Both the position numbers and the translations under genes were made by a program. Source: Gonocerus acuteangulatus (taxonomy: Eukaryota > Arthropoda > Insecta > Hemiptera > Coreidae). From it: a stretch of DNA of 64,000 nucleotides. The notes beneath the pieces were generated by a model. That model made no database searches, was not told the origin of the DNA, and was given only the letters and a program-made list of their open reading frames with translations. This document shows, in pieces, positions 895 to 55,871 of this stretch. The stretch lies in the NCBI GenBank assembly GCA_946811695.1, contig OX328126.1, positions 2,258,771 to 2,322,770 of the forward strand, in the 5' to 3' direction. The stretch's first letter is position 1, and every line of letters starts with the position of its first letter.

Positions 895-1187
895 CATTTT
901 GGGGTGTAGATAAATACCTCCAACTCAGAACTACCTTCTACAAAGCTCGAATCTTGTCTCAGCTGAGATTAGCCAGGAAGTTGGAGCTGAGAATATTTAC
1001 TAATGGAATCTTGTACAAGATTAAATGTGACGAGATATGCTGGATATGCAACCTGTACGAAGAGGAGGATATTGGTCACTTCCTACTCAGGAGTCCGATG
1101 TACACGGAAGCTAGACGCCACTACATCTGCAGCTATTTTCAAGCAGAGGACACCACTGAAGACAGCCTTGTTGCATTACTGGATGTA
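895..1187 (+). pseudogene. LINE ORF2 C-terminal fragment with CCHC-type zinc knuckle
   Basis: Translation from 895 gives a TFWGVDKYL start and then a leucine- and arginine-rich stretch leading to C-x2-C-x9-H-x4-S, with HFLLRSP followed by MYTEARRHYI. This is the C-terminal cysteine motif of I/R1-like LINEs, thought to help nucleic-acid binding in target-primed reverse transcription. The last motif position is Ser (AGT) here, while the array copies downstream have TGT (Cys), so the canonical CCHC was present in the founder. After about 1187 the frame runs into the second array unit; 127 is not a multiple of 3, and the reading stops shortly afterwards. Confidence 0.7.
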
Positions 1188-4100
1188 AGAGGAGGATATT
1201 GGTCACTTCCTACTCAGGTGTCCGATGTACACGGAAGCTAGACGCCACTAAATCTGCAGCTATTTCCAAGCAGAGGACACCACTGAAGACAGGCTTGTTG
1301 CATTACTGGATGTAAGAGGAGGATATTGGTCACTTCCTACTCAGGTGTCCGATGTACACGGAAGCTAGACGCCACTACATCTGCAGCTATTTCCAAGCAG
1401 AGGACACCACTGAATACAGGCTTGTTGCATTACTGGATGTAAGAGGAGGATATTGGTCACTTCCTACTCAGGTGTCCGATGTACACGGAAGCTAGACGCC
1501 ACTACATCTGCAGCTATTTCCAAGCAGAGGACACCACTCAAGACAGCCTTGTTGCATTACTGGGTGTAAGAGGAGGATATTGGTCACTTCCTACTCAGGT
1601 GTCCGATGTACACGGAAGCTAGACGCCACTACATCCGCAGCTATTTCCAGGCAGAGGACACCACTCAAGACAGCCTTGTTGCATTACTGGATGTAAGAGG
1701 AGGATATTGGTCACTTCCTACTCAGGTGTCCGATGTACACGGAAGCTAGACGCCACTACATCTGCAGCTATTTCCAAGCAGAGGACACCACTGAATACAG
1801 GCTTGTTGCATTACTGGATGTAAGAGGAGGATATTGGTCACTTCCTACTCAGGTGTCCGATGTACACGGAAGCTAGACGCCACTACATCTGCAGCTATTT
1901 CCAAGCAGAGGACACCACTCAAGACAGGCTTGTTGCATTACTGGATGTAAGAGGAGGATATTGGTCACTTCCTACTCAGGTGTCCGATGTACACGGAAGC
2001 TAGACGCCACTACATCTGCAGCTATTTCCAAGCAGAGGACACCACTGAAGACATGCTTGTTGCATTACTGGATGTAAGAGGAGGATATTGGTCACTTCCT
2101 ACTCAGGTGTCCGATGTACACGGAAGCTAGACGCCACTACAACTGCAGCTATTTCCAAGCAGAGGACACCACTCAAGACAGGCTTGTTGCATTACTGGAT
2201 GTAAGAAGAGGATATTGGTCACTTCCTACTCAGGTGTCCGATGTACACGGAAGCTAGACGCCACTACATCTGCAGCTATTTCCAAGCAGAGGACACCACT
2301 CAAGACAGGCTTGTTGCATTACTGGATGTAAGAGGAGGATATTGGTCACTTCCTACTCAGGTGTCCGATGTACAGGGAAGCTAGACGCCACTACATCCGC
2401 AGCTATTTCCAAGCAGAGGACACCACTGAATACAGGCTTGTTGCATTACTGGATGTAAGAGGAGGATATTGGTCACTTCCTACTCAGGTGTCCGATGTAC
2501 ACGGAAGCTAGACGCCACTACATCTGCAGCTATTTCCAAGCAGAGGACACCACTCAAGACAGGCTTGTTGCATTACTGGATGTAAGAGGAGGATATTGGT
2601 CACTTCCTACTCAGGTGTCCGATGTACACGGAAGCTAGACGCCACTACATCTGCAGCTATTTCCAAGCAGAGGACACCACTGAATACAGGCTTGTTGCAT
2701 TACTGGATGTAAGAGGAGGATATTGGTCACTTCCTACTCAGGTGTCCGATGTACACGGAAGCTAGACGCCACTACATCTGCAGCCATTTCCAAGCAGAGG
2801 ACACCACTCAAGACAGGCTTGTTGCATTACTGGATGTAAGAGGAGGATATTGGTCACTTCCTACTCAGGTGTCCGATGTACACGGAAGCTAGACGTCACT
2901 ACATCTGCAGCTATTTCTAAGCAGAGGACACCACTGAAGACAGGCTTGTTGCATTACTGGATGTAAGAGGAGGATATTGGTCACTTCCTACTCAGGTGTC
3001 CGATGTACACGGAAGCTAGACGCCACTACATCTGCAGCTATTTCCAAGCAGAGGACACCACTCAAGACAGGCTTGTTGCATTACTGGATGTAAGAGGAGG
3101 ATATTGGTCACTTCCTACTCAGGTGTCCGATGTACACGGAAGCTAGACGCCACTACATCTGCAGCTATTTCCAAGCAGAGGACACCACTCAATACAGCCT
3201 TGTTGCATTACTGGATGTAAGAGGAGGATATTGGTCACTTCCTACTCAGGTGTCCGATGTACACGGAAGCTAGACGCCACTACATCTGCAGCTATTTCCA
3301 AGCAGAGGACACCACTGAAGACAGGCTTGTTGCATTACTGGATGTAAGAGGAGGATATTGGTCACTTCCTACTCAGGTGTCCGATGTACACGGAAGCTAG
3401 ACGCCACTACATCTGCAGCTATTTCCAAGCAGAGGACACCATTAAGACATGCTTGTTGCATTACTGGATGTAAGAGGAGGATATTGGTCACTTCCTACTC
3501 AGGTGTCCGATGTAGACGGAAGCTAGACGCCACTACATCTGCAGCTATTTCCAAGCAGAGGACACCACTGAAGACAGCCTTGTTGCATTACTGGATGTAA
3601 GAGGAGGATATTGGTCACTTCCTACTCAGGTGTCCGATGTACACGGAAGCTAGACGCCACTACATCTGCAGCTATTTCCAAGCAGAGGACACCATTAAGA
3701 CAGGCTTGTTGCATTACTGGATGTGTAAGAGGAGGATATTGGTCACTTCCTACTCAGGTGTCCGATGTACACGGAAGCTAGACGCCACTACATCTGCAGC
3801 TATTTCCAAGCAGAGGACACCACTCAAGACAGCCTTGTTGCATTACTGGGTGTAAGAGGAGGATATTGGTCACTTCCTACTCAGGTGTCCGGTGTACACG
3901 GAAGCTAGACGCCACTACATCCGCAGCTATTTCCAAGCAGAGGACACCACTCAAGACAGCCTTGTTGCATTACTGGATGTAAGAGGAGGATATTGGTCAC
4001 TTCCTACTCAGGTGTCCGATGTACACGGAAGCTAGACGCCACTACATCTGCAACTATTTCCAAGCAGAGGACACCACTCAAGACAGGCTTGTTGCATTAC

Positions 4101-7100
4101 TGGATGTAAGAGGAGGATATTGGTCACTTCCTACTCAGGTGTCCGATGTACACGGAAGCTAGACGCCACTACATCTGCAGCTATTTCCAAGCAGAGGACA
4201 CCACTGAAGACAGGCTTGTTGCATTACTGGATGTAAGAAGAGGATATTGGTCACTTCCTACTCAGGTGTCCGATGTACACGGAAGCTAGACGCCACTACA
4301 TCTGCAGCTATTTCCAAGCAGAGGACACCACTGAATACAGGCTTGTTGCATTACTGGATGTAAGAGGAGGATATTGGTCACTTCCTACTCAGGTGTCCGA
4401 TGTACACGGAAGCTAGACGCCACTACATCTGCAGCTATTTCCAAGCAGAGGACACCACTGAAGACAGGCTTGTTGCATTACTGGATGTAAGAGGAGGATG
4501 TTGGTCACTTCCTACTCAGGTGTCCGATGTACACGGAAGCTAGACGCCACTACATCTGCAGCTATTTCCAAGCAGAGGACACCACTCAAGACAGGCTTGT
4601 TGCATTACTGGATGTAAGAGGAGGATATTGGTCACTTCCTACTCAGGTGTCCGATGTACACGGAAGCTAGACGCCACTACATCTGCAGCTATTTCCAAGC
4701 AGAGGACACCACTGAATACAGGCTTGTTGCATTACTGGATGTAAGAGGAGGATATTGGTCACTTCCTACTCAGGTGTCCGATGTACACGGAAGCTAGACG
4801 CCACTACATCTGCAGCTATTTCTAAGCAGAGGACACCACTCAAGACAGGCTTGTTGCATTACTGGATGTAAGAGGAGGATATTGGTCACTTCCTACTCAG
4901 GTGTCCGATGCACACGGAAGCTAGACGCCACTACATCTGCAGCTATTTCCAAGCAGAGGACACCACTGAAGACAGCCTTGTTGCATTACTGGATGTAAGA
5001 GGAGGATATTGGTCACTTCCTACTCAGGTGCCCGATGTACACGGAAGCTAGACGCCACTACATCTGCAGCTATTTCCAAGCAGAGGACACCACTGAAGAC
5101 AGCCTTGTTGCATTACTGGATGTAAGAGGAGGATATTGGTCACTTCCTACTCAGGTGTCCGATGTACACGGAAGCTAGACGCCACTACATCTGCAGCTAT
5201 TTCGAAGCAGAGGACACCACTGAAGACAGGCTTGTTGCATTACTGGATGTAAGAGGAGGATATTGGTCACTTCCTACTCAGGTGTCCGATGTACACGGAA
5301 GCTAGACGCCACTACATCTGCAGCTATTTCCAAGCAGAGGACACCACTGAAGACAGGCTTGTTGCATTACTGGATGTAAGAGGAGGATATTGGTCACTTC
5401 CTACTCAGGTGTCCGATGTACACGGAAGCTAGACGCCACTACATCTGCAGCTATTTCCAAGCAGAGGACACCACTCAAGACAGCCTTGTTGCATTACTGG
5501 ATGTAAGAGGAGGATATTGGTCACTTCCTACTCAGGTGTCCGAAGTACACGGAAGCTAGAAGCCACTACATCTACAGCTATTTCCAAGCAGAGGACACCA
5601 CTGAAGACAGCCTTGTTGTATTACTGGATGTAAGAGGAGGATATTGGTCACTTCCTACTCAGGTGTCCGATGTACACGGAAGCTAGACGCCACTACATCT
5701 GCAGCTATTTCCAAGCAGAGGACACCACTGAACACAGCCTTGTTGCATTACTGGATGTAAGAGGAGGATATTGGTCACTTCCTACTCAGGTGTCCGATGT
5801 ACACGGAAGCTAGACGCCACTACATCTGCAGCTATTTCCAAGCAGAGGACACCACTCAAGACAGCCTTGTTGCATTACTGGATGTAAGAGGAGGATATTG
5901 GTCACTTCCTACTCAGGTGTCCGATGTACACGGAAGCTAGACGCCACTACATCTGCAGCTATTTCCAAGCAGAGGACACCACTGAACACAGCCTTGTTGC
6001 ATTACTGGATGTAAGAGGAGGATATTGGTCACTTCCTACTCAGGTGTCCGATGTACACGGAAGCTAGACGCCACTACATCTGCAGCTATTTCCAAGCAGA
6101 GGACACCACTCAAGACAGCCTTGTTGCATTACTGGATGTAAGAGGAGGATATTGGTCACTTCCTACTCAGGTGTCCGATGTACACGGAAGCTAGACGTCA
6201 CTACATCTGCAGCTATTTCTAAGCAGAGGACACCACTGAAGACAGGCTTGTTGCATTACTGGATGTAAGAGGAGGATATTGGTCACTTCCTACTCAGGTG
6301 TCCGATGTACACGGAAGCTAGACGCCACTACATCTGCAGCTATTTCCAAGCAGAGGACACCACTCAAGACAGCCTTGTTGCATTACTGGGTGTAAGAGGA
6401 GGATATTGGTCACTTCCTACTCAGGTGTCCGGTGTACACGGAAGCTAGACGCCACTACATCCGCAGCTATTTCCAAGCAGAGGACACCACTCATGACAGC
6501 CTTGTTGCATTACTGGATGTAAGAGGAGGATATTGGTCACTTCCTACTCAGGTGTCCGATGTACACGGAAGCTAGACGCCACTACATCTGCAACTATTTC
6601 CAAGCAGAGGACACCACTCAAGACAGGCTTGTTGCATTACTGGATGTAAGAGGAGGATATTGGTCACTTCCTACTCAGGTGTCCGATGTACACGGAAGCT
6701 AGACGCCACTACATCTGCAGCTATTTCCAAGCAGAGGACACCACTGAAGACAGGCTTGTTGCATTACTGGATGTAAGAAGAGGATATTGGTCACTTCCTA
6801 CTCAGGTGTCCGATGTACACGGAAGCTAGACGCCACTACATCTGCAGCTATTTCCAAGCAGAGGACACCACTGAAGACAGCCTTGTTGCATTACTGGATG
6901 TAAGAGGAGGATATTGGTCACTTCCTACTCAGGTGTCCGATGTACACGGAAGCTAGACGCCACTACATCTGCAGCTATTTCCAAGCAGAGGACACCACTG
7001 AAGACAGGCTTGTTGCATTACTGGATGTAAGAGGAGGATGTTGGTCACTTCCTACTCAGGTGTCCGATGTACACGGAAGCTAGACGCCACTACATCTGCA

Positions 7101-10100
7101 GCTATTTCCAAGCAGAGGACACCACTCAAGACAGGCTTGTTGCATTACTGGATGTAAGAGGAGGATATTGGTCACTTCCTACTCAGGTGTCCGATGTACA
7201 CGGAAGCTAGACGCCACTACATCTGCAGCTATTTCCAAGCAGAGGACACCACTGAATACAGGCTTGTTGCATTACTGGATGTAAGAGGAGGATATTGGTC
7301 ACTTCCTACTCAGGTGTCCGATGTACACGGAAGCTAGACGCCACTACATCTGCAGCTATTTCTAAGCAGAGGACACCACTCAAGACAGGCTTGTTGCATT
7401 ACTGGATGTAAGAGGAGGATATTGGTCACTTCCTACTCAGGTGTCCGATGCACACGGAAGCTAGACGCCACTACATCTGCAGCTATTTCCAAGCAGAGGA
7501 CACCACTGAAGACAGCCTTGTTGCATTACTGGATGTAAGAGGAGGATATTGGTCACTTCCTACTCAGGTGCCCGATGTACACGGAAGCTAGACGCCACTA
7601 CATCTGCAGCTATTTCCAAGCAGAGGACACCACTGAAGACAGCCTTGTTGCATTACTGGATGTAAGAGGAGGATATTGGTCACTTCCTACTCAGGTGTCC
7701 GATGTACACGGAAGCTAGACGCCACTACATCTGCAGCTATTTCGAAGCAGAGGACACCACTGAAGACAGGCTTGTTGCATTACTGGATGTAAGAGGAGGA
7801 TATTGGTCACTTCCTACTCAGGTGTCCGATGTACACGGAAGCTAGACGCCACTACATCTGCAGCTATTTCCAAGCAGAGGACACCACTGAAGACAGGCTT
7901 GTTGCATTACTGGATGTAAGAGGAGGATATTGGTCACTTCCTACTCAGGTGTCCGATGTACACGGAAGCTAGACGCCACTACATCTGCAGCTATTTCCAA
8001 GCAGAGGACACCACTGAATACAGGCTTGTTGCATTACTGGATGTAAGAGGAGGATATTGGTCACTTCCTACTCAGGTGTCCGATGTACACGGAAGCTAGA
8101 CGCCACTACATCTGCAGCTATTTCCAAGCAGAGGACACCACTCAAGACAGGCTTGTTGCATTACTGGATGTAAGAGGAGGATATTGGTCACTTCCTACTC
8201 AGGTGTCCGATGTACACGGAAGCTAGACGTCACTACATCTGCAGCTATTTCTAAGCAGAGGACACCACTGAAGACAGGCTTGTTGCATTACTGGATGTAA
8301 GAGGAGGATATTGGTCACTTCCTACTCAGGTGTCCGATGTACACGGAAGCTAGACGCCACTACATCTGCAGCTATTTCTAAGCAGAGGACACCACTGAAG
8401 ACAGGCTTGTTGCATTACTGGATGTAAGAGGAGGATATTGGTCACTTCCTACTCAGGTGTCCGATGTACACGGAAGCTAGACGCCACTACATCTGCAGCT
8501 ATTTCCAAGCAGAGGACACCACTCAAGACAGGCTTGTTGCATTACTGGATGTAAGAGGAGGATATTGGTCACTTCCTACTCAGGTGTCCGATGTACACGG
8601 AAGCTAGACGCCACTACATCTGCAGCTATTTCCAAGCAGAGGACACCACTCAAGACAGCCTTGTTGCATTACTGGATGTAAGAGGAGGATATTGGTCACT
8701 TCCTACTCAGGTGTCCGAAGTACACGGAAGCTAGAAGCCACTACATCTACAGCTATTTCCAAGCAGAGGACACCACTGAAGACAGCCTTGTTGTATTACT
8801 GGATGTAAGAGGAGGATATTGGTCACTTCCTACTCAGGTGTCCGATGTACACGGAAGCTAGACGCCACTACATCTGCAGCTATTTCCAAGCAGAGGACAC
8901 CACTGAACACAGCCTTGTTGCATTACTGGATGTAAGAGGAGGATATTGGTCACTTCCTACTCAGGTGTCCGATGTACACGGAAGCTAGACGCCACTACAT
9001 CTGCAGCTATTTCCAAGCAGAGGACACCACTCAAGACAGCCTTGTTGCATTACTGGATGTAAGAGGAGGATATTGGTCACTTCCTACTCAGGTGTCCGAT
9101 GTACACGGAAGCTAGACGCCACTACATCTGCAGCTATTTCCAAGCAGAGGACACCACTGAACACAGCCTTGTTGCATTACTGGATGTAAGAGGAGGATAT
9201 TGGTCACTTCCTACTCAGGTGTCCGATGTACACGGAAGCTAGACGCCACTACATCTGCAGCTATTTCCAAGCAGAGGACACCACTCAAGACAGCCTTGTT
9301 GCATTACTGGATGTAAGAGGAGGATATTGGTCACTTCCTACTCAGGTGTCCGATGTACACGGAAGCTAGACGCCACTACATCTGCAGCTATTTCCAAGCA
9401 GAGGACACCACTCAAGACAGCCTTGTTGCATTACTGGATGTAAGAGGAGGATATTGGTCACTTCCTACTCAGGTGTCCGATGTACACGGAAGCTAGACGC
9501 CACTACATCTGCAGCTATTTCCAAGCAGAGGACACCACTGAAGACAGCCTTGTTGCATTACTGGATGTAAGAGGAGGATATTGGTCACTTCCTACTCAGG
9601 TGTCCGATGTACACGGAAGCTAGACGCCACTACATCTGCAGCTATTTCCAAGCAGAGGACACCACTGAAGACAGCCTTGTTGCATTACTGGATGTAAGAG
9701 GAGGATATTGGTCACTTCCTACTCAGGTGTCCGATGTACACGGAAGCTAGACGCCACTACATCTGCAGCTATTTCCAAGCAGAGGACACCACTGAAGACA
9801 GCCTTGTTGCATTACTGGATGTAAGAGGAGGATATTGGTCACTTCCTACTCAGGTGTCCGATGTACACGGAAGCTAGACGCCACTACATCTGCAGCTATT
9901 TCCAAGCAGAGGACACCACTGAAGACAGCCTTGTTGCATTACTGGATGTAAGAGGAGGATATTGGTCACTTCCTACTCAGGTGTCCGATGTACACGGAAG
10001 CTAGTAGCCACTACATCTGCAGCTATTTTCAAGCAGAGGACACCACTCAAGACAGGCTTGTTGCATTACTGGATGTAAGAGGAGGATATTGGTCACTTCC

Positions 10101-10589
10101 TACTCAGGTGTCCGATGCACACGGAAGCTAGACGCCACTACATCTGCAGCTATTTCCAAGCAGAGGACACCACTCAAGACAGGCTTGTTGCATTACTGGA
10201 TGTAAGAGGAGGATATTGGTCACTTCCTACTCAGGTGTCCGATGTACACGGAAGCTAGACGCCACTACATCTGCAGCTATTTCCAAGCAGAGGACACCAC
10301 TGAAGACAGCCTTGTTGCATTACTGGATGTAAGAGGAGGATATTGGTCACTTCCTACTCAGGTGTCCGATGTACACGGAAGCTAGACGCCACTACATCTG
10401 CAGCTATTTCCAAGCAGAGGACACCACTGAAGACAGCCTTGTTGTATTACTGGATGTAAGAGGAGGATATTGGTCACTTCCTACTCAGGTGTCCGATGTA
10501 CACGGAAGCTAGACGCCACTACATCTGCAGCTATTTCCAAGCAGAGGACACCACTGAAGACAGCCTTGTTGTATTACTGGATGTAAGAG
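1060..10589 (+). repeat. 127-bp tandem array, about 75 copies, derived from LINE ORF2
   Basis: Units repeat every 127 bp (for example GTAAGAGGAGG at 1185 and 1312) over 9,530 bp. Each unit is the LINE segment from the EEEDIGHFLLRCP region to LLDV. Because 127 is not divisible by 3, consecutive units are out of frame and the array is non-coding; short open frames within it are artefacts of periodicity. Units differ by a few recurrent substitutions (GAAGAC, CAAGAC or GAATAC; CCTTG or GCTTG; CTGCAG or CCGCAG). The founder junction shows AAGAG at both edges (1060-1064 and 10585-10589), a 5-bp microhomology 127 bp apart in the ancestral LINE. Confidence 0.97.
3730..9360 (+). repeat. Higher-order duplications inside the 127-bp array
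   Basis: Rare variants recur at fixed distances. GGTGTACACG (3891/6431), GCAACTATTTC (about 4048/6588), GAGGATGTTGG (about 4495/7035), the GATGCACACGG variant (about 4909/7449), CCCGATGTAC (5030/7570) and TTCGAAGCAG (5203/7743) are all 2,540 bp apart, which is 20 units. Variants from about 5470 to 6180, such as CGAAGTACAC and GAACACAGCC, recur 3,175 bp later, which is 25 units. The array therefore grew by block duplication as well as single-unit steps. Confidence 0.85.
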
Positions 10590-12479: not shown

Positions 12480-13690
12480 TTCATTTGCATCCTAGGAAAA
12501 TCAGTATGGATCAGAAGGTAGATGAATTATCTGCCTACGGTGGGATATTCATGTCTCTATAGGACACTATGGTAAGGAAACATTAAGCTGTGTTCAAATG
12601 AGTTGGTATAATCCTTTGTTGTGTAGGTAATGGAGTATAGAGTGTGTTGGCTATCTTCGCTTAACAACTCGCATAAGTTGTAGGGTAAGTTCAGGTCACG
12701 TCGTCTCATGCATTCTGTAAGTAAGTGTTTTATCGTAAGAGTAGTGTTACATATTTCACATTGCGGCTGTTCTTGTCTTGTCATTAAGTAACTGTGAGTA
12801 AGTCGAGAATGACCAATCCTTAAGCGCGTCAAAACCACTTCTTCTCTTCGGTTTACAGGGGAACTGGATGGCCATTCTTTTACTGTATGTTTGATAGAAC
12901 GGAGTTTATTTTCTGTTAGTTGTGTCCACGAATTTTGCCAGAATAATGTTATAATGTCTCTTGTTCTGTTTGTCCAGTCTTGGTGGGTTAGTCTTGTTAT
13001 TTCTACGTTTGTTTGTTCAGTAGCTGTTTTTGCATGAGAGTCGGCCAACGAACTTTTGCCTAAGTCTTGGTGACCTGGAACCCTGTGGATGGTAACGTGT
13101 CTGTTTGTTCAGTAGCTGTTTTTGCATGAGAGTCGGCCAACGAACTTTTGCCTAAGGCTTGGAGACCTGGTAGCCAGTGGATGGTAACGTGTCTGTTTGT
13201 TCAGTAGCTGTTTTTGCATGAGAGTCGGCCAACGAACTTTTGCCTAAGGCTTGGTGACCTGGTAGCCAGTGGATGGTAACGTGTCTGTTTGTTCAGTAGC
13301 TGTTTTTGCATGAGAGTCGGCCAACGAACTTTTGCCTCAGTCTTGGTGACCTGGTAGCCAGTGGATGGTAACGTGTCTGTTTAGTGTGTGAACCTGAAAT
13401 AGTACTCGTTGTAATAGTGGATGATGTGTGTAGCTGTCAGTTAGTGCTTCAAGTGAGTCCCTGTAAAGCACGATATCCCTTGTATCTGTAACAGGTATAT
13501 TTTCCAGGTCAATAAGGATGCCATAGAGCTCAGCTGTAAAGATACTCGCCTGATTGTTGATTCTTTTTCTTATTACTTGCTCTTCTATTACAGCTGCTGC
13601 TCCTACACCATTATCTGTTTTGGAACCGTCAGTGAAGATAGAGAGTTTTTCTAAATAATTTAATTGAGTGTCGTAATGTTTTTTATTGAT
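12480..13690 (-). pseudogene. Jockey-like LINE ORF2 remnant: RNase H plus C-terminal zinc motif
   Basis: Reading the minus strand from 13690 gives RNase H motifs in order: IFTDGSK (first catalytic Asp), SIFTAELYGI (Glu), IVLYRDS (Asp) and IHWLPGHQDLGKSSLADSHA (His/Asp region). The intact C-terminal frame 13048-12557 then carries RREEVVLTRLRIGHSRLTHS and a cysteine motif C-x2-C-x8-H-x4-C (CEIC, then KHLLTEC), typical of Jockey-like LINEs. The protein ends at 12557. RNase H would remove the RNA strand after target-primed reverse transcription. The copy lacks reverse transcriptase and is broken by the internal 92-bp repeat. An A-rich stretch on the minus strand near 12472-12481 may mark the 3' tail. 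Confidence 0.85.
13010..13385 (-). repeat. 92-bp tandem repeat inside the LINE RNase H region, about 4 copies
   Basis: CTGTTTGTTCAG recurs at 13101, 13193 and 13285, and the partial CTGTTT at 13377, exactly 92 bp apart. Each unit encodes the HVTIHWLPGHQD to ADSHAKTATEQT segment. As 92 is not divisible by 3, each copy shifts the frame and destroys the ORF. Short direct repeats (TGTTT) occur at the edges. Confidence 0.95.
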
Positions 13691-48610: not shown

Positions 48611-48619
48611 CAGAGATTC
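48611..48619. repeat. 9-bp target-site duplication, left copy
   Basis: CAGAGATTC immediately before the terminal inverted repeat. The identical 9 bases follow the right terminus at 55863-55871. Nine bases is the usual duplication length of Mutator-superfamily transposons. Confidence 0.9.
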
Positions 48620-49146
48620 GTGTGTGTGAAGCTGGCGTCTCATTTCGTGGAAACTCAAAATTTTTTGAGAGTTCTGGCTTTATTTTGAATAGTTCTAGAG
48701 TTCTTGATAAGTTAAATTAATAGTTCCGGCCTTTAAAGCAAAAAAAATGGCATAACAAATGATTTGCCAAGTTCACACAGCAAATCATTTTGTTTTTCGA
48801 CAATTTCCGTATCAACAATCGTCAGGATTCAAAAAATCATAGATTTGTAAGAGTTCTGAGGATAGTTCTACATTTTAGAAGAAAAAAAAAACGATTAAAA
48901 AAGAAAAACATTTACAGAAATTATCCCGATATAAACACGGTTTGAGATCTAAAGCCAATCAATAACTAGTTGTTTTGATTATTCTAAACGAGTTCTAATA
49001 TAGTTAAAGTCATGTACAATGATTTTCCGACCAGCTCTGATACAAGGATTAATCGGAAGTATTTAAAAAAAAATATTATACTTGTAAAATACGTTCATAT
49101 TTGTAAAATTAAAAAATTCAACGCCGCTCGAAATTTGACAGTTCTG
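48620..49146 (+). repeat. Left terminal inverted repeat of the MULE
   Basis: About 527 bp matching the reverse complement of 55337-55862 with only scattered mismatches, for example around 48807-48820 (TTTCCGTATC versus TTTCCTTATT) and 49031-49036. It contains several GAGTTCT/AGTTCTG words that recur in the subterminal units, suggestive of repeated transposase-binding sites (inference). Confidence 0.93.
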
Positions 49147-51375
49147 ATTATTCCAAAAGAGTTCTGATATAGTTAAAGACATGACTTATGATTTTCCCAA
49201 GAGTTCTGGTACAAGAAATGATGAGAAGTATTTTTGAACAATTATTATACTGGAAAACTGCATGTGGTAAATTTAAAATTGCAACCACGGCCTATAAGAA
49301 GGAGTTCTGATTATTCCAAAAGAGTTCTGAAATAGTTAAAGACATGACTTATGATTTTCCAAAGAGTTCTGGTACAAGAAATGATGAGAAGTATTTTTGA
49401 ACAATTATTATACTGGAAAACTGCATGTGGTAAATTTAAAATTGCAACCACGGCCTATAAAAAGGAGTTCTGATTATTCCAAAAGAGTTCTGATATAGTT
49501 AAAGACATGACTTATGATTTTCCCAAGAGTTCTGGTACAAGAAATGATGAGAAGTATTTTTGAACAATTATTATACTGGAAAACTGCATGTGGTAAATTT
49601 AAAATTGCAACCACGGCCTATAAGAAGGAGTTCTGATTATTCCAAAAGAGTTCTGAAATAGTTAAAGACATGACTTATGATTTTCCAAAGAGTTCTGGTA
49701 CAAGAAATGATGAGAAGTATTTTTGAACAATTATTATACTGGAAAACTGCATGTGGTAAATTTAAAATTGCAACCACGGCCTATAAGAAGGAGTTCTGAT
49801 TATTCCAAAAGAGATCTGAAATAGTTACAGCCATGACTTATGATTTTCCCAAGAGTTCTGGTACAAGAAATGATGAGAAGTATTTTTCAACAATTATTAT
49901 ACTTGAAAACTGCATGTGGTAAATTTGAAATTGCAACCACGGCCTATAAAAAGGAGTTCTGATTATTCCAAACGAGTTCTGATTTAGTTAAAGACATGAC
50001 TTATGATTTTCTAAAGAGTTCTGGTACAAGAAATGATGAGAAGTATTTTTGAACAATTATTATACTGGAAAACTGCATGTGGTAAATTTAAAATTGCAAC
50101 CACGGCCTATAAGAAGGAGTTCTGATTATTCCAAAAGAGTTCTGATATAGTTACAGACATGACTTATGATTTTCCCAAGAGTTCTGGTACAAGAAATGAT
50201 GAGAAGTATTTTTCAACAATTATTATACTTGAAAACTGCATGTGATAAATTTGAAATTGCAACCACGGCCTATAAAAAGGAGTTCTGATTATTCCAAAAG
50301 AGTTCTGATATAGTTAAAGACATGACTTATGATTTTCCAAAGAGTTCTGGTACAAGAATTGATGAGAAGTATTTTTGAACAATTATTATACTGGAAAACT
50401 GCATGTGGTAAATTTAAAATTGAAACCACGGCCTATAAGAAGGAGTTCTGATTATTCCAAAAGAGTTCTGATATAGTTACAGACATGACTTATGATTTTC
50501 CCAAGAGTTCTGGTACAAGAAATGATGAGAAGTATTTTTCAACAATTATTATACTTGAAAACTGCATGTGATAAATTTGAAATTGCAACCACGGCCTATA
50601 AAAAGGAGTTCTGATTATTCCAAAAGAGTTCTGATATAGTTAAAGACATGACTTATGATTTTCCAAAGAGTTCTGGTACAAGAAATGATGAGAAGTATTT
50701 TTGAACAATTATTATACTGGAAAACTGCATGTGGTAAATTTAAAATTGCAACCACGGCCTATAAGAAGGAGTTCTGATTATTCGAAAAGAGTTCTGAAAT
50801 AGTTACAGACATGACTTATGATTTTCCCAAGAGTTCTGGTACAAGAAATGATGAGAAGTATTTTTCAACAATTATTATACTTGAAAACTGCATGTGATAA
50901 ATTTGAAATTGCAACCACGGCCTATAAAAAGGAGTTCTGATTATTCCAAAAGAGTTCTGATATAGTTAAAGACATGACTTATGATTTTCCAAAGAGTTCT
51001 GGTACAAGAAATGATGAGAAGTATTTTTGAACAATTATTATACTGGAAAACTGCATGTGGTAAATTTAAAATTGCAACCACGGCCTATAAGAAGGAGTTC
51101 TGATTATTCCAAAAGAGTTCTGAAATAGTTACAGACATGACTTATGATTTTCCCAAGAGTTCTGGTACAAGAAGTGATGAGAAGTATTTTTCAACAATTA
51201 TTATACTTGAAAACTGCATGTGATAAATTTGAAATTGCAACCACGGCCTATAAATAGGAGTTCTGATTATTCCAAAAGAGTTCTGATATAGTTAAAGACA
51301 TGGAAAATGATTTCCTGAAGAGTTCTGATCGGAAAAAGAATTAGAAGTATTTTTAAACAATTATTTTACTTCCAA
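49141..51375 (+). repeat. Left subterminal array, 163-bp unit, about 13 copies
   Basis: GGAGTTCTGATTATTCC recurs at 49301, 49464 and 49627 and onward at 163-bp steps. Each unit has GAGTTCTGATTATTCCAAAA, AGAGTTCTGATATAGTTA, AAGAGTTCTGGTACAAG and GCAACCACGGCCTATAA. Two unit subtypes (TATTTTTGAACAATT with CTGGAAAAC, and TATTTTTCAACAATT with CTTGAAAAC) alternate over the right half, giving a 326-bp dimer period. The last unit diverges from about 51300. Confidence 0.95.
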
Positions 51376-51809
51376 AATGTATATTTCTGTGCATATACCT
51401 AATGGTAGAATATCTTTAAATAAGTATGTCTAAATATCTTTTAGACTCTAAATAACTTTTAAATAATGTAATTTTTTTTAACTTATAAAATAAATGTTTT
51501 TCTAAAATGTACAACTTCCCTTATATAGTGTTAATAATGAACAACTTAGGTTGATGAAGATTTAATAAATATATTTTTTCTCATTCTTAGCGTTACCCGG
51601 AACTAACGGCGTGGACGTGACGAGAATATAGTCCTTTTTTTTTTTTTTTTTTTTTTTTCTTTTTTTTTAAATAACTTTAAGGAAGTTTGTTAATAATTAA
51701 AATAATTACGGAATATAAAGTACCGTATGGTCAAGAATCAGACACCTCTACAGTATCTGCCCCTCTGGGCCCTTGTGGCCTGTTACGGGACTGATTTTTT
51801 TTTTTTTTT

Positions 51810-51868
<59 letters not shown>

Positions 51869-52086
51869 ATATATATATACATTGTAGTATAATAATAGAA
51901 ATTATATTATAGTATGGTGAGTTGAAATTTAAATAATCATTTGTAATGAGAATAACTTAAAATAATTAATGAAATTTAAACTATTATATAATACAATAAT
52001 AACATATTGTAATTATTTATACATATATATATATGTGTGTATATATATATGTACATATATATAGTATTGTATATAGTGTGGTAAGT
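51376..52086. other. Non-coding AT-rich segment inside the MULE with poly-T and (TA)n
   Basis: Contains a T-rich run at about 51634-51668, another T run at 51788-51810 leading into (TA)n to about 51880, and further TA/TG-rich sequence at 52021-52070. A GC-richer island at 51590-51630 (GTTACCCGGAACTAACGGCG) next to the first T run may be part of a nested small insertion. The 61-codon frame at 51727-51912 is mostly microsatellite and not a gene. Confidence 0.7.
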
Positions 52087-52092
52087 TTTATT
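52087..52092 (-). terminator. AATAAA polyadenylation signal
   Basis: AATAAA on the minus strand lies a few bases beyond the peptidase stop codon (52095-52097), and another overlaps the stop region. The position suits a very compact 3' end for the transposon transcript. Confidence 0.5.
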
Positions 52093-52094
52093 AC

Positions 52095-53012
52095 TTATTT
52101 TATTTGAGAATATATTAAAACGTGTGGTGTGATTTGAAATTTTAAAGGTGATATTTCTCTTCTTTTTGGCTTTAAATCGTCATACTCGTACCAGGCTATG
52201 TTTGTAAATAATAATGACGTGTAATGGCGTATACTATAAATATAATTTATTACGCCTCGAAGTATATATTTATTATTATTAAGGGTAATATGTTTTGCAA
52301 CACTATTTAAATTGTAGGTTTTCTTTGTAAATCCGGAATTATTAATGTAATTATTATCCGTCAGAATACTTGTATCTATTATTATTTGTGGCCCGTATGT
52401 TTCTGTTATATCACATGTGTTTTTACATTTGACACATATGTGCTTGGAAATTGTTTCGTCTATAGCGTTTTGTACATATTCCAATCCTTTATCCAAAATT
52501 ACGTTGACATTTATACTTAATAATATAAATTTAATATTTTTTGAATAGTCACACATTTTGCAGGTTTGGACTCTTTTTAGACTAGGCAAAGAAAGAAATG
52601 TATGTTCTGCTAAGTGAGCAGCGTTACACATTGCATCTAATGTGGTGAATGTCCTAGTATACCTCGTGGACTCGAATAGTGATGTACTATTTAGAAAAGA
52701 AGCTCTTTCCATATAATCGTTCCGTGTTATTTTACCGCGAGATATTATTCTTTCTGCCAATCGTAAAAAATGATCATCGGTACTTTGTGCGATACTTTTA
52801 TATTCGGTGCTCATTCCTATCATATGCGCTGTTATGTGTAAAAGAGAATCGAAAGCGCACGTATTGTGAACCATAATAGTTTTTCCTTGTAATTTAACCC
52901 GTTCACATAAATTGCCGTTTTTGATTATAGGGATGAAAACTGAAACATTCGATTTGACACTATCCCATTCGGGACATTTGTCTAAATAAGTTTTTTTTTT
53001 TAGGAGTGCCAC
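52095..53012 (-). CDS. USP-like (C19-type) cysteine peptidase domain, downstream frame of the MULE gene
   Basis: The 305-codon frame shows the order of motifs of ubiquitin-specific proteases. Counting from the first codon, there is a Cys box VHNTCAFDSLLHI (Cys52), two zinc-type pairs CKMC (151/154) and CVKC (193/196), then YNLNSVAKH, a His box RHYTS (His263) and WYEYDDL (Asp278/279). USPs cleave ubiquitin or ubiquitin-like modifiers using Cys, His and Asp/Asn. The frame opens at GTG rather than ATG and there is an in-frame stop a few codons upstream, so it is not an independent gene; it overlaps the transposase frame by 53 bp across an A11 run and is most simply the C-terminal half of one protein. 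It ends next to AATAAA. The protease assignment rests on motifs I can see, not on a profile search; the substrate is unknown. Confidence 0.75.
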   Translation of the reverse strand: MALLKKKTYLDKCPEWDSVKSNVSVFIPIIKNGNLCERVKLQGKTIMVHNTCAFDSLLHITAHMIGMSTEYKSIAQSTDDHFLRLAERIISRGKITRNDYMERASFLNSTSLFESTRYTRTFTTLDAMCNAAHLAEHTFLSLPSLKRVQTCKMCDYSKNIKFILLSINVNVILDKGLEYVQNAIDETISKHICVKCKNTCDITETYGPQIIIDTSILTDNNYINNSGFTKKTYNLNSVAKHITLNNNKYILRGVINYIYSIRHYTSLLFTNIAWYEYDDLKPKRREISPLKFQITPHVLIYSQIK

Positions 53013-54520
53013 ATGATTTAGAACCTTTATTGGTCAACCCCATCCAGTTTTCCTCATAGTTTAGCGAATCTATAGCATCATTAGAAGAAGAATCCGATAC
53101 ATCATATATAACTGCCTTTACAGCATCCTGTGAATTTTGATTATTTCCATCTGAGCTACTTTTATATAAATCATGGATATTTTCTCGAATATTTTCACAA
53201 TCGGATGTTGCATTAAAGTTATTACTGGAAATAGATAAATCCGAAGTGCATATGCTTATTTGTTCCTGCTTCGGAGATATTTTGTTTTCTTGTTCCAAAG
53301 TAGCAGAGGAAATATTTTCTGCAAAATCTAATCGTAATTTGCCATCGAGATAATTTAGATGGCTAATGACAAATTTTTCTACTCTCATCGGAAGACTACC
53401 TTTAAAAACTCTTGTTTTATATTCCGCAAAGATTGATTCTACCGAAGAAGATGTCGCAATTTCCATATCATTGTTAAAATAAGGACGCATAAGACCGGTC
53501 CACAATGGTAAAATGTTTATTAAATCCTTTATTTTCTTTCCAGCTTCTGAATTATAAAAAGCATTGACAACATTACCATTTTGCGATTTTAACGCAAGAT
53601 TACGAGCTTTATAATATATGTCATTACTCCAATTTTGCCAAGAAGATGGAATTTCTTCGGAATCATAATCGCCTAATGATAATTCATCTTCAGTAATATT
53701 GCTTGGTTCAGGAAAATTCTCAGATTTTATGCAATTATTAAGAGATTGCAAGCATGTCTCGGCTGGTACCGGAGTTTGGTCATCCATGTATCCGATGTCT
53801 TCACTTAAAGCTACTACGATTAAAGAAAATAAAAAAGTTTGTAACACGTTTAAAGATTGCATTTTATATGCTTGTGATATGCATCTAAGATAAAATTGCC
53901 GTACTTTCTTTGGCGAATTCCGCAAACATTCCCAATTGCTCACCATTCTAATAATGTGGCTAACATCTAATCTTAGATACGAAGCAGGCATCACTGTTTT
54001 TATTTTTTGTACAGAAATATTGTAACAACATTGTAAATAATGTTTTAAATCGGCACAATCTGCAAATGCACGTGCTAGAGCCACTAACAATGCGCGACTA
54101 TAATCTGTCACCATTACAGGAGGAACCGTAGCACCGGCTCTACGAATTTCTAGAAGGAAATAAGTCAAGAGTGCTGCGTCGTGTTTGGTAGACAACATTT
54201 GAAATACCGGAACGGCTCGTTTATCTTTTTGAGCAATCATGCATTGATAAAGAAATATATGAGAAGATTGATTTCCGTCAGGTAATATTAATTTCTTTGC
54301 GACACTGCCTGTAGCTTCCATAGTAAAATAGGCATCTTTACTACGACTCATTATTTTCTGCATAATTATCTGCTCCTTAGACCAGTATATAACGTAGAAA
54401 GGATCCAAACCTATTCCATGTATCAATCCGGATAGTATTGTGTATTTAAATTTTAGTAAATTAAGTACTGCATCATTGCTATTAATATCCAAACGATTAT
54501 CAATTTCATGCTGTTTGGCT
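52960..54520 (-). CDS. MULE-type DDE transposase domain, upstream frame of the MULE gene
   Basis: Open from a TGA in the adjacent subterminal repeat; the first recognisable residues, LDINSNDAVLNLL, begin at 54492 on a TTG, with no in-frame ATG near it. So the N-terminus is missing, spliced from elsewhere, or initiated differently. Motifs, numbered from 54492: LIHGIGLDPFYVIYW (23-37), FTMEATGSVAKKL (56-68), HIFLYQC (78-84), QMLSTKHD (98-105), VTDYSRALL (128-136, Asp130), LRLDVSHIIRMVSNW (173-187), and SSSVESIFAEYKTRVF with LPMRVEKFV (348-375, Glu352). The layout fits a MULE-related DDE transposase with Asp130 and Glu352 as catalytic candidates. The first catalytic position is Glu59 where relatives, as I recall them, have Asp (DATG). 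Residues 400-510 are Ser/Asn-rich, linker-like. It stops at 52960 just after the A11 run. Confidence 0.8.
52990..53000 (-). other. A11 homopolymer at the transposase-peptidase frame junction
   Basis: The minus strand has CCT followed by eleven A and CTT. The upstream frame reads through the run and stops about 10 codons later; the downstream frame is open on both sides of it. A run one base shorter would put both domains in a single frame. It may be an indel mutation, a sequencing or assembly error in a homopolymer, or a site of transcriptional slippage or +1 frameshifting. Confidence 0.8.
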
Positions 54521-55345
54521 CAGAACTCCTTTTTATAGGCCGTGGCTGCAATTTCAAATTTATCACATGCAGTTTTCAAGTATAATAATTGTTGAAAAAT
54601 ACTTCTCATCATTTCTTGTACCAGAACTCTTTAGAAAATCATAAGTCATGCCTTTAACTATATCAGAACTCTTTTGGAATAATCAGAACTCCTTCTTATA
54701 GGCCGTGGTTGCAATTTTAAATTTACCACATGCAGTTTTCCAGTATAATAATTGTTCAAAAATACTTCTCATCATTTCTTGTACCAGAACTCTTTGGAAA
54801 ATCATAAGTCATGTCTTTAACTATATCAGAACTCTTTTGGAATAATCAGAACTCCTTTTTATAGGCCGTGGTTGCAATTTCAAATTTATCACATGCAGTT
54901 TTCAAGTATAATAATTGTTGAAAAATACTTCTCATCAATTCTTGTACCAGAACTCTTGGGAAAATCATAAGTCATGTCTGTAACTATTTCAGAACTCTTT
55001 TGGAATAATCAGAACTCCTTCTTATAGGCCGTGGTTGCAATTTTAAATTTACCACATGCAGTTTTCCAGTATAATAATTGTTCAAAAATACTTCTCATCA
55101 TTTCTTGTACCAGAACTCTTTGGAAAATCATAAGTCATGTCTTTAACTATATCAGAACTCTTTTGGAATAATCAGAACTCCTTTTTATAGGCCGTGGTTG
55201 CAATTTCAAATTTATCACATGCAGTTTTCAAGTATAATAATTGTTGAAAAATACTTCTCATCATTTCTTGTACCAGAACTCTTGGGAAAATCATAAGTCA
55301 TGTCTTTAACTATATCAGAACTCTTTTGGAATAATCAGAACTGTC
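54521..55345 (-). repeat. Right subterminal array, 163-bp unit, 5 copies, inverted
   Basis: The same 163-bp unit as at the left end in opposite orientation (CAGAACTCCTTTTTATAGGC and so on). It abuts the transposase frame with almost no spacer, so the promoter of the gene would have to lie in or beyond these repeats. Copy number differs from the left side (5 versus about 13). Confidence 0.95.
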
Positions 55346-55862
55346 AAATTTCGAGCGGCGTTGAATTTTTTATTTTTACAAATATGAACGTATTTTACAA
55401 GTATAATAATTTTTTTTAAATACTTCCGATTAATCCTTGTATCATAACTGGTCGGAAAATCATTGTACATGACTTTAACTATATTAGAACTCGTTTAGAA
55501 TAATCAAAACAACTAGTTATTGATTGGCTTTAGATCTCAAACCGTGTTTATATCGGGATAATTTCTGTAAATGTTTTTCTTTTTTAATCGTTTTTTTTTT
55601 CTTCTAAAATGTAGAACTATCCTCAGAACTCTTACAAATCTATGATTTTTTGAATCCTGACGATTGTTAATAAGGAAAATGTCGAAAAACAAAATGATTT
55701 GCTGTGTGAACTTGGCAAATCATTTGTTATGCCATTTTTTTTGCTTTAAAGGCCGGAACTATTAATTTAACTTATCAAGAACTCTAGAACTATTCAAAAT
55801 AAAGCCAGAACTCTCAAAAAATTTTGAGTTTCCACGAAATGAGACGCCAGCTTCACACACAC
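55337..55862 (-). repeat. Right terminal inverted repeat of the MULE
   Basis: Reverse complement of 48620-49146, ending CGCCAGCTTCACACACAC at 55862. Confidence 0.93.
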
Positions 55863-55871
55863 CAGAGATTC
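55863..55871. repeat. 9-bp target-site duplication, right copy
   Basis: CAGAGATTC, identical to 48611-48619. Confidence 0.9.

Follow-up and report, generated by a model that had tools for sequence, protein, structure and literature searches.

A Foldback-like element and its broken gene

We analyzed a window of 64,000 nucleotides from Gonocerus acuteangulatus (contig OX328126.1) that holds a transposable element, apparently of the FB-NOF/Rehavkus type, with a two-part gene on the minus strand. The first part is a DDE-type transposase frame of 519 amino acids (aa) at 52960-54519, and the second is a frame of 312 aa (52095-53033) resembling ubiquitin-specific proteases (USPs; peptidase family C19). 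A first-pass annotation, made from the letters alone, had described two overlapping frames here, and both were recovered, together with all the motifs it quoted (EATGS, VTDYS, and SSSVES in the transposase and NTCAFDSLL, CKMC, CVKC, HYTS, and YDDL in the second frame). Its interval, 52095 to 54520, holds the frames but not the whole element, which extends over 7,243 bp from 48620 to 55862, begins with GTGTGTGTGAAGC, and closes with the inverse of GTGTGTGTGAAGC.

The terminal inverted repeats (TIRs) and the 9-bp duplication proposed in that annotation are both present. The target-site duplication CAGAGATTC directly flanks the inverted ends (left copy at 48611-48619 and right copy at 55863-55871, both on the plus strand) and has no third copy anywhere in the window, and 884 of 900 outer positions are identical between the left and right ends. 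Each TIR has an outer, nontandem part of about 520 bp (48620-49139 on the plus strand at the left and 55343-55862 on the minus strand at the right) and an array of 163-bp tandem repeats. The left array (49140-51370, plus strand; 13.7 copies by Tandem Repeats Finder [TRF]) is almost three times as long as the right one (54520-55342, minus strand; 5.0 copies by TRF), which matches it in inverted orientation. With the arrays, the full ends measure about 1.3 kb (right) and 2.8 kb (left), compared to 520 bp without them. The left array carries oriented AGTTCTG motifs. This heptamer is found 61 times in the element (43 forward and 18 inverse) and twice elsewhere in the window; the 40 forward positions listed all fall within 48670-51158, and the inverse ones lie at 54521-55806. 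AGTTCTG lies mostly in the two arrays and is a candidate binding site; the arrays rich in it could be transposase-binding arrays or promoters.

No other stop-free frame of the window is as long as either of these two, which lie in DNA of about 32% GC and have relatives at 59% identity; we therefore ruled out chance open reading frames (ORFs). The frames diverge at a stretch of 11 A residues on the coding strand (52991-53001, minus strand), where the window copy has a frameshift. When joined, the resulting 807 aa aligned to the relative P0001, a single ORF of 1,078 aa, with 59% identity and 100% query coverage, and six further relatives of 1,023 to 1,089 aa covered at least 97% of the joined query in the same search. 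Since the single ORF of P0001 spans the joined sequence, we read the two frames as a single protein that the frameshift in the A run has divided. That the frames differ in phase and meet at this run would also fit separate genes, or programmed frameshifting, merely brought together in one element. We consider this highly improbable, as P0001, P0006, P0008, P0009, P0011, P0012, and P0013 are single ORFs and the similarity crosses the junction. The single ORFs in relatives rule out two unrelated neighboring genes.

Compared to P0001, the transposase frame (its 519 codons occupy 52963-54519) lacks the first 273 residues, and its open stretch begins at the very base where the right repeat array stops (54519/54520). 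The codon of the first catalytic acid (54316-54318, minus strand) encodes Glu, in EATGS, at a position that is Asp in all 34 aligned full-length relatives; EATGS is a mutated form of the family's DATGS. The other two catalytic residues are kept on the same strand: the second Asp (VTDYS; 54103-54105) is Asp in 34 of 34 relatives, and the Glu (SSSVES; 53437-53439) is Glu in 33 of 34. Because of the frameshift, the missing N terminus, and the substitution of the first Asp, all visible defects, the window copy is a dead relic. It is not expected to perform either transposition or deubiquitination as one protein.

To what extent the transposase is of the MULE (Mutator-like element) type, as first annotated, depends on the measure used. 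Its family keeps the DDE residues as given above, but the Pfam MULE profile PF10551 matched the window frame only with an E value of 0.0072 (17.2 bits, under the cut-off of 27.6) and gave weak matches in 4 of 23 relatives, and the family is that of FB-NOF/Rehavkus. Three search rounds (23, 73, and 104 matches) yielded 179 related proteins. A transposase profile was made from 34 of these, the Drosophila melanogaster NOF protein among them, and it matches all 180 sequences (the 179 plus the window frame); for the window frame, the match has an E value of 5.6e-149 and covers positions 270-740 of 753. Transposon-family names among the relatives are those of "NOF-FB transposable element" proteins from the ants Ooceraea, Camponotus, Harpegnathos, and Formica, and the third round included the D. 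melanogaster 120.7 kDa NOF-FB protein (P0104). The remaining relatives with organism names belong to additional ants and to a moth, a butterfly, aphids, thrips, a stick insect, and pipefish. The pipefish (Syngnathus) sequences, P0130 and P0138, are NOF-like transposase fragments filed under the unrelated gene names orai-2 and wdr4; gene-model fusion, domestication, or horizontal transfer into vertebrates could account for them.

Because the transposase is homologous to NOF, the duplication measures 9 bp, and the inverted ends contain tandem arrays, we file the element, on its sequence, under the FB-NOF/Rehavkus type. The duplication also falls within the range of 8 to 11 bp given for the MULE superfamily in a section of PMC6446971, which leaves open whether Rehavkus is a MULE. 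Phantom/Muta and plain MULE families were considered first, for the long ends and an insect-like host, and were provisionally set aside on family names and anatomy: the named relatives are NOF-FB, and the anatomy matches Rehavkus. A Pfam scan for a PHD finger found none in the window frames (with their N terminus missing), in P0001, or in D. melanogaster NOF. NCBIfam gave weak, unrelated matches only. A search of GTDB contigs with P0001 returned 17 pattern matches and a search of viral contigs 35, with 0 confirmed in either.

A full-length model of P0001 had a predicted local distance difference test (pLDDT) score of 80.6 and a predicted TM-score (pTM) of 0.55, with residues 676-778 under a pLDDT of 50. 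In a fold search with this model, ISCth4 (E value of 2.4e-5), presumably of the IS256 type, and the Drosophila P-element transposase (E value of 2.0e-4) ranked after the USPs, with low TM-scores and high root mean square deviations. These matches weakly suggest a DDE enzyme with an RNase H-like fold. A second look with VIA-align returned a list filled by USPs and barely probed the transposase half of the model.

The C-terminal USP-like domain

The C-terminal 300 aa of the joined protein (52098-52997, minus strand) were modeled by AlphaFold2 with a pLDDT of 91.3 and a pTM of 0.88. Structure and profile searches with the domain both recovered the papain-like fold of USPs, in line with the C19-like peptidase that the first-pass annotation had joined to the transposase. 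With a profile of the domain only, the best match in the PDB was Ubp8 of the SAGA deubiquitinating module (chain 4zux_U; E value of 3.8e-9). The ranking of USP subfamilies was unstable, with USP12 and USP21, USP30 and USP46, or USP18 at the top depending on the search, and identity to known USP structures was 10 to 17% across the 50 structural alignments listed. Among the 50 viral matches listed for the USP model, the protein A0A7G9IR81 of Thrips tabaci associated virga-like virus 2 ranked eighth and had the top query TM-score (0.55), which suggests a USP-like domain in an insect-associated virus.

The predicted active site is conserved. We counted residues over 44 near-complete domains, after 16 of 59 domain-matching proteins were dropped as too partial. 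The predicted nucleophile (NTCAFD; codon at 52857-52859) is Cys in all 44 domains, and the predicted catalytic His (RHYTS; 52224-52226) is likewise His in all 44, with Gly as the preceding residue in 32. The predicted third member of the triad (YDDL; 52179-52181) is Asp in 33 and Asn in 11. Between them lie the two CxxC pairs of a zinc ribbon, CKMC (52551-52562), whose two Cys residues are kept in 42 domains each, and CVKC (52425-52436), with Cys kept in 42 and 43. In PDB profile searches, these residues align to the ribbon of USP12 and Ubp8. All of these codons are on the minus strand.

Pfam searches with 14 domain pieces detected UCH in 9 (E value of ≤0.1; best, 1.3e-7) and C98 in 2. In a different reading, the domain acts on SUMO, in the manner of USPL1, or on some other ubiquitin-like modifier, parallel to plant MULEs that carry Ulp1. 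We find this improbable given the greater share of UCH matches, the PDB profile ranking (E value of 0.0048 for USPL1 versus 3.8e-9 for Ubp8), and the retention of the four zinc-binding Cys residues. The match to USPs could also reflect convergence on a short motif by a C-terminal domain of other origin; single-sequence PDB and Pfam searches with the window piece indeed found nothing relevant. The fold and profile searches rule out such a coincidence of short motifs, and we give convergence the least credence of all the readings weighed here.

Several observations weigh against a USP identity or against activity. When whole proteins were searched, Pfam UCH reached an E value of ≤0.1 in only 4 of 36 family members (some of them fragments) and the cut-off in none (best score, 23.5 bits versus a gathering score of 23.9). 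UCH had no match in the window's own piece, nor in D. melanogaster NOF, either whole or as the domain piece. The unrelated Pfam families GFA and PHP reach an E value of 0.003 on domain pieces, so that single weak UCH matches mean little. The PDB profile matches span the zinc ribbon and the His box rather than the Cys box. Our domain hidden Markov model was iterated on family members, which makes the presence counts partly self-confirming; the independent support comes from the PDB, Pfam, and fold searches. Most homologues come from sequence-archive contigs, and in one of the 44 domains (P0099) the frame departs from the family soon after the His, its Asp being an alignment guess. A shared fold alone shows no function. 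Finally, the active site does not follow the standard USP box in full: the oxyanion residue of USPs is an Asn at five residues before the catalytic Cys, and only 3 of 44 domains have it. For this last reason, we call the domain USP-like, that is, a divergent C19 fold, rather than a USP proper.

The scarcity of the usual oxyanion Asn would also suit a pseudo-enzyme, i.e., a ubiquitin-binding module or a DNA- or protein-binding appendage without proteolysis. If the module only bound its partner, however, one would expect some members to have lost the triad, whereas Cys, His, and Asp or Asn are each present in 44 of 44 domains even though the domains of 34 proteins share a mean identity of only about 28%. 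A pseudo-enzyme thus seems unlikely, somewhat more so than a preference for SUMO. Taken with the points above, we are nearly certain that the C-terminal part is a C19-fold, USP-like domain in a transposon protein of the FB-NOF type. It is predicted to be catalytically active on ubiquitin, which we regard as likely.

Inheritance and possible role of the fusion

The first-pass annotation had proposed looking for the two domains side by side in homologues. Of the 43 proteins of at least 950 aa, 41 carry the USP-like domain behind the transposase in a single ORF; it is nearly whole in 34 and partial in 7. The final domain profile matches 59 of all 179 proteins, and 118 of the 120 without a match are under 950 aa. 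The two longer proteins without a match are P0175 and P0179. Near its end, P0175 has a ENTCTIDNALTILH stretch that by eye resembles a worn Cys box and was kept outside the count. In P0179, a NOF-like transposase (E value of 5.5e-42) is followed by matches to Ulp1 (E value of 3e-7), PHD_4 (0.0017; weak), and OTU (0.08; very weak). In another relative, P0047, two Znf_SCAND3 stretches (best at 944-982) lie between the transposase and the USP domain, inside a tandemly duplicated segment.

In the 34 proteins with both regions, the divergence of the transposase correlates with that of the USP region (r = 0.89), with mean identities of 32% and 28%, respectively. The trees of the two regions have 16 of 31 splits in common; when the labels were shuffled 200 times, they shared 0.16 splits on average and never more than 2. 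Two strongly supported conflicts between the trees count against strict co-inheritance. The simplest reading of these comparisons would be that the two regions fused once, long ago, and have since been inherited together and seldom exchanged. The USP-like domain is an old, standard part of the FB-NOF/Rehavkus transposase, including that of Drosophila NOF.

The computation gives the anatomy of the element, the homology, the single-ORF fusion, the USP fold, the conservation of the triad, and co-inheritance. Overall, the best explanation is, in our judgment, a decayed FB-NOF/Rehavkus element whose family transposase carries a USP domain, and we hold this to be likely. In fuller relatives, the product is a single protein of about 1,000 to 1,250 aa with an N-terminal region that is probably DNA binding, the DDE transposase, a linker that is disordered in the model, and the C-terminal USP domain. 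Transposase assemblies may recognize the motif repeated along the long inverted ends, and the element would then be cut out and inserted at a stagger of 9 bp. The USP domain, tethered to the transposase, could strip ubiquitin (likelier than SUMO) either off the transposase itself or off other proteins where the element leaves and inserts. The likeliest of its roles would be to keep the DNA-bound transposase complex from being removed in a ubiquitin-dependent way; in the next likeliest, the domain would edit the ubiquitin of histones or repair factors where the DNA is broken. The first-pass annotation had raised both protection of the transposase and action on chromatin ubiquitin as possibilities. 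We put forward such protection in cis tentatively; the deubiquitinases of Helitrons (VTD) are the nearest experimental precedent.

The fused domain could instead be active mainly on ubiquitin in chromatin or DNA repair (H2A/H2B, PCNA, or targets of the FANCD2 type) and not on the transposase. Ubp8, the best solved relative with the domain-only profile, comes from an entry titled nucleosome-bound, the fold matches include USP1 on FANCD2, and transposase Ulp1 and OTU domains have been proposed to act on repair pathways in a passage of Bao et al. 2010 (PMC2836005). On the other side, the rank of USP subfamilies shifts between searches. We see a chromatin or repair substrate as possible, with slightly less weight than protection in cis. 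At the level of the group, we suggest, as somewhat less likely than not, that the classic Foldback/NOF transposases are two-enzyme proteins in which a DNA-cutting transposase is permanently tethered to an active deubiquitinase needed for transposition, and that local removal of ubiquitin or SUMO would be a recurrent requirement. The recurrence is suggested by P0179, whose related transposase bears other modules of deconjugase type (Ulp1, a PHD finger, and possibly OTU).

Now that the C-terminal part has a fold, predicted catalytic residues, and a conserved linkage of long standing, how Foldback elements move becomes testable through a single Cys. A USP-type peptidase also joins the Ulp1 and OTU domains reported on MULE-type transposases and supports the idea that transposition often fights or exploits host ubiquitin signaling.

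The rest of the window is rich in repeats. Half of it (15095-47533) is taken up by a satellite with a unit of about 77 bp, present in 419 copies over 32 kb. A 127-bp satellite (75 copies; 1060-10589) has a unit that reads EEDIGHFLLRCPMYTEARRHY in one frame and that we take to resemble the Cys/His end of the reverse transcriptase of a non-long terminal repeat (non-LTR) retrotransposon; it may have grown from a retrotransposon fragment. A stop-free frame of 183 aa on the minus strand (12560-13108) starts with TNRHVTIHRVPGHQDLGKSSLADSHAK, and its "VPGH" and "ADSHAK" parts look to us like a fragment of a retrotransposon RNase H.

Comparison with known systems

Transposases with Ulp1 or OTU domains are already known, as is one Trichomonas vaginalis transposase with C19. 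What appears new relative to the literature searched is a USP-like domain in a group of elements known for decades, with its fold and predicted catalytic residues, in a long-standing, conserved link to the transposase. We did not meet a C19/USP domain on FB-NOF/Rehavkus in the open-licence literature searched, a body that does not include Repbase Reports or the FB-NOF papers of Badal et al. Within it, "NOF-FB" combined with "ubiquitin" gave no paper, and a query for foldback, transposon, ubiquitin, and peptidase gave only a paper on Drosophila aneuploidy. The available main text of PMC6446971 has no word starting with ubiquitin, peptidase, or protease, and the available text of PMC13359780, a 2026 survey of arthropod MULEs with Rehavkus as an outgroup, does not mention ubiquitin, peptidase, or NOF.

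A close comparison is FB-NOF of D. melanogaster, the species from which Foldback elements were first described, in 1980 (Potter et al. 1980, cited by PMC4079207). In its protein (P0104), the transposase is homologous over nearly its whole length and the C-terminal USP-like domain is shared (at residues of about 752-1056), although that domain is only 25% identical to the one in the window and the Pfam listing flags no domain in the Drosophila protein. Foldback ends are described in part of PMC3573991 as long and internally repetitive, a likeness by description. For Rehavkus, the comparison was likewise by description. The inverted termini of Rehavkus-1_TC of Tribolium hold a 164-bp satellite, mostly in five and eight copies (according to a passage of PMC10218199), close to the 163-bp unit in 5.0 and 13.7 copies of the window element. 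Excerpts of PMC6446971 list 9-bp duplications, a minisatellite before the 3' TIR, TIRs of 26 to 400 bp, and a PHD finger for Rehavkus, whose transposase is grouped with or near MULEs. The 9-bp duplication and the placement of the transposase agree with the window element, whereas the ends of the latter measure about 1.3 and 2.8 kb and contain arrays on both sides. Because the termini of Rehavkus-1_TC hold five and eight 164-bp units, the range of 26 to 400 bp is not a strict limit.

The pairing of a DDE or integrase-like transposase with a C-terminal deconjugating cysteine peptidase has been described for MULEs with Ulp1 (C48) or OTU and for Ginger1 with OTU or Ulp1 (in sections of PMC2836005), and "Ovarian Tumour Gene" is listed for one MULE group in a part of PMC6446971. 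C48 and OTU are other peptidase families, whereas the domain in the window element is C19/USP-like. The only printed link between a transposase and C19 that we met in the literature searched is T. vaginalis XP_001314237, given as transposase_11 (pfam01609) plus Peptidase C19 in a passage of PMC2836005; it belongs to a protist and is of the transposase_11 type, not MULE or FB. For the VTD deubiquitinases encoded by Helitrons, activity was measured and the authors suggest, in a portion of PMC9741609, that transposition proteins may thereby be shielded from the proteasome. Helitrons are rolling-circle transposons, and their VTD enzymes belong to another class of deubiquitinases with a different active-site layout. 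Host USPs differ in the Cys box, which in the window family is mostly (N)TC.FD, in place of the usual USP box, with no conserved Asn at position -5. With Ubp8/USP22, USP12/46, and USP30, the transposon domain shares the same fold, triad residues, and zinc ribbon.

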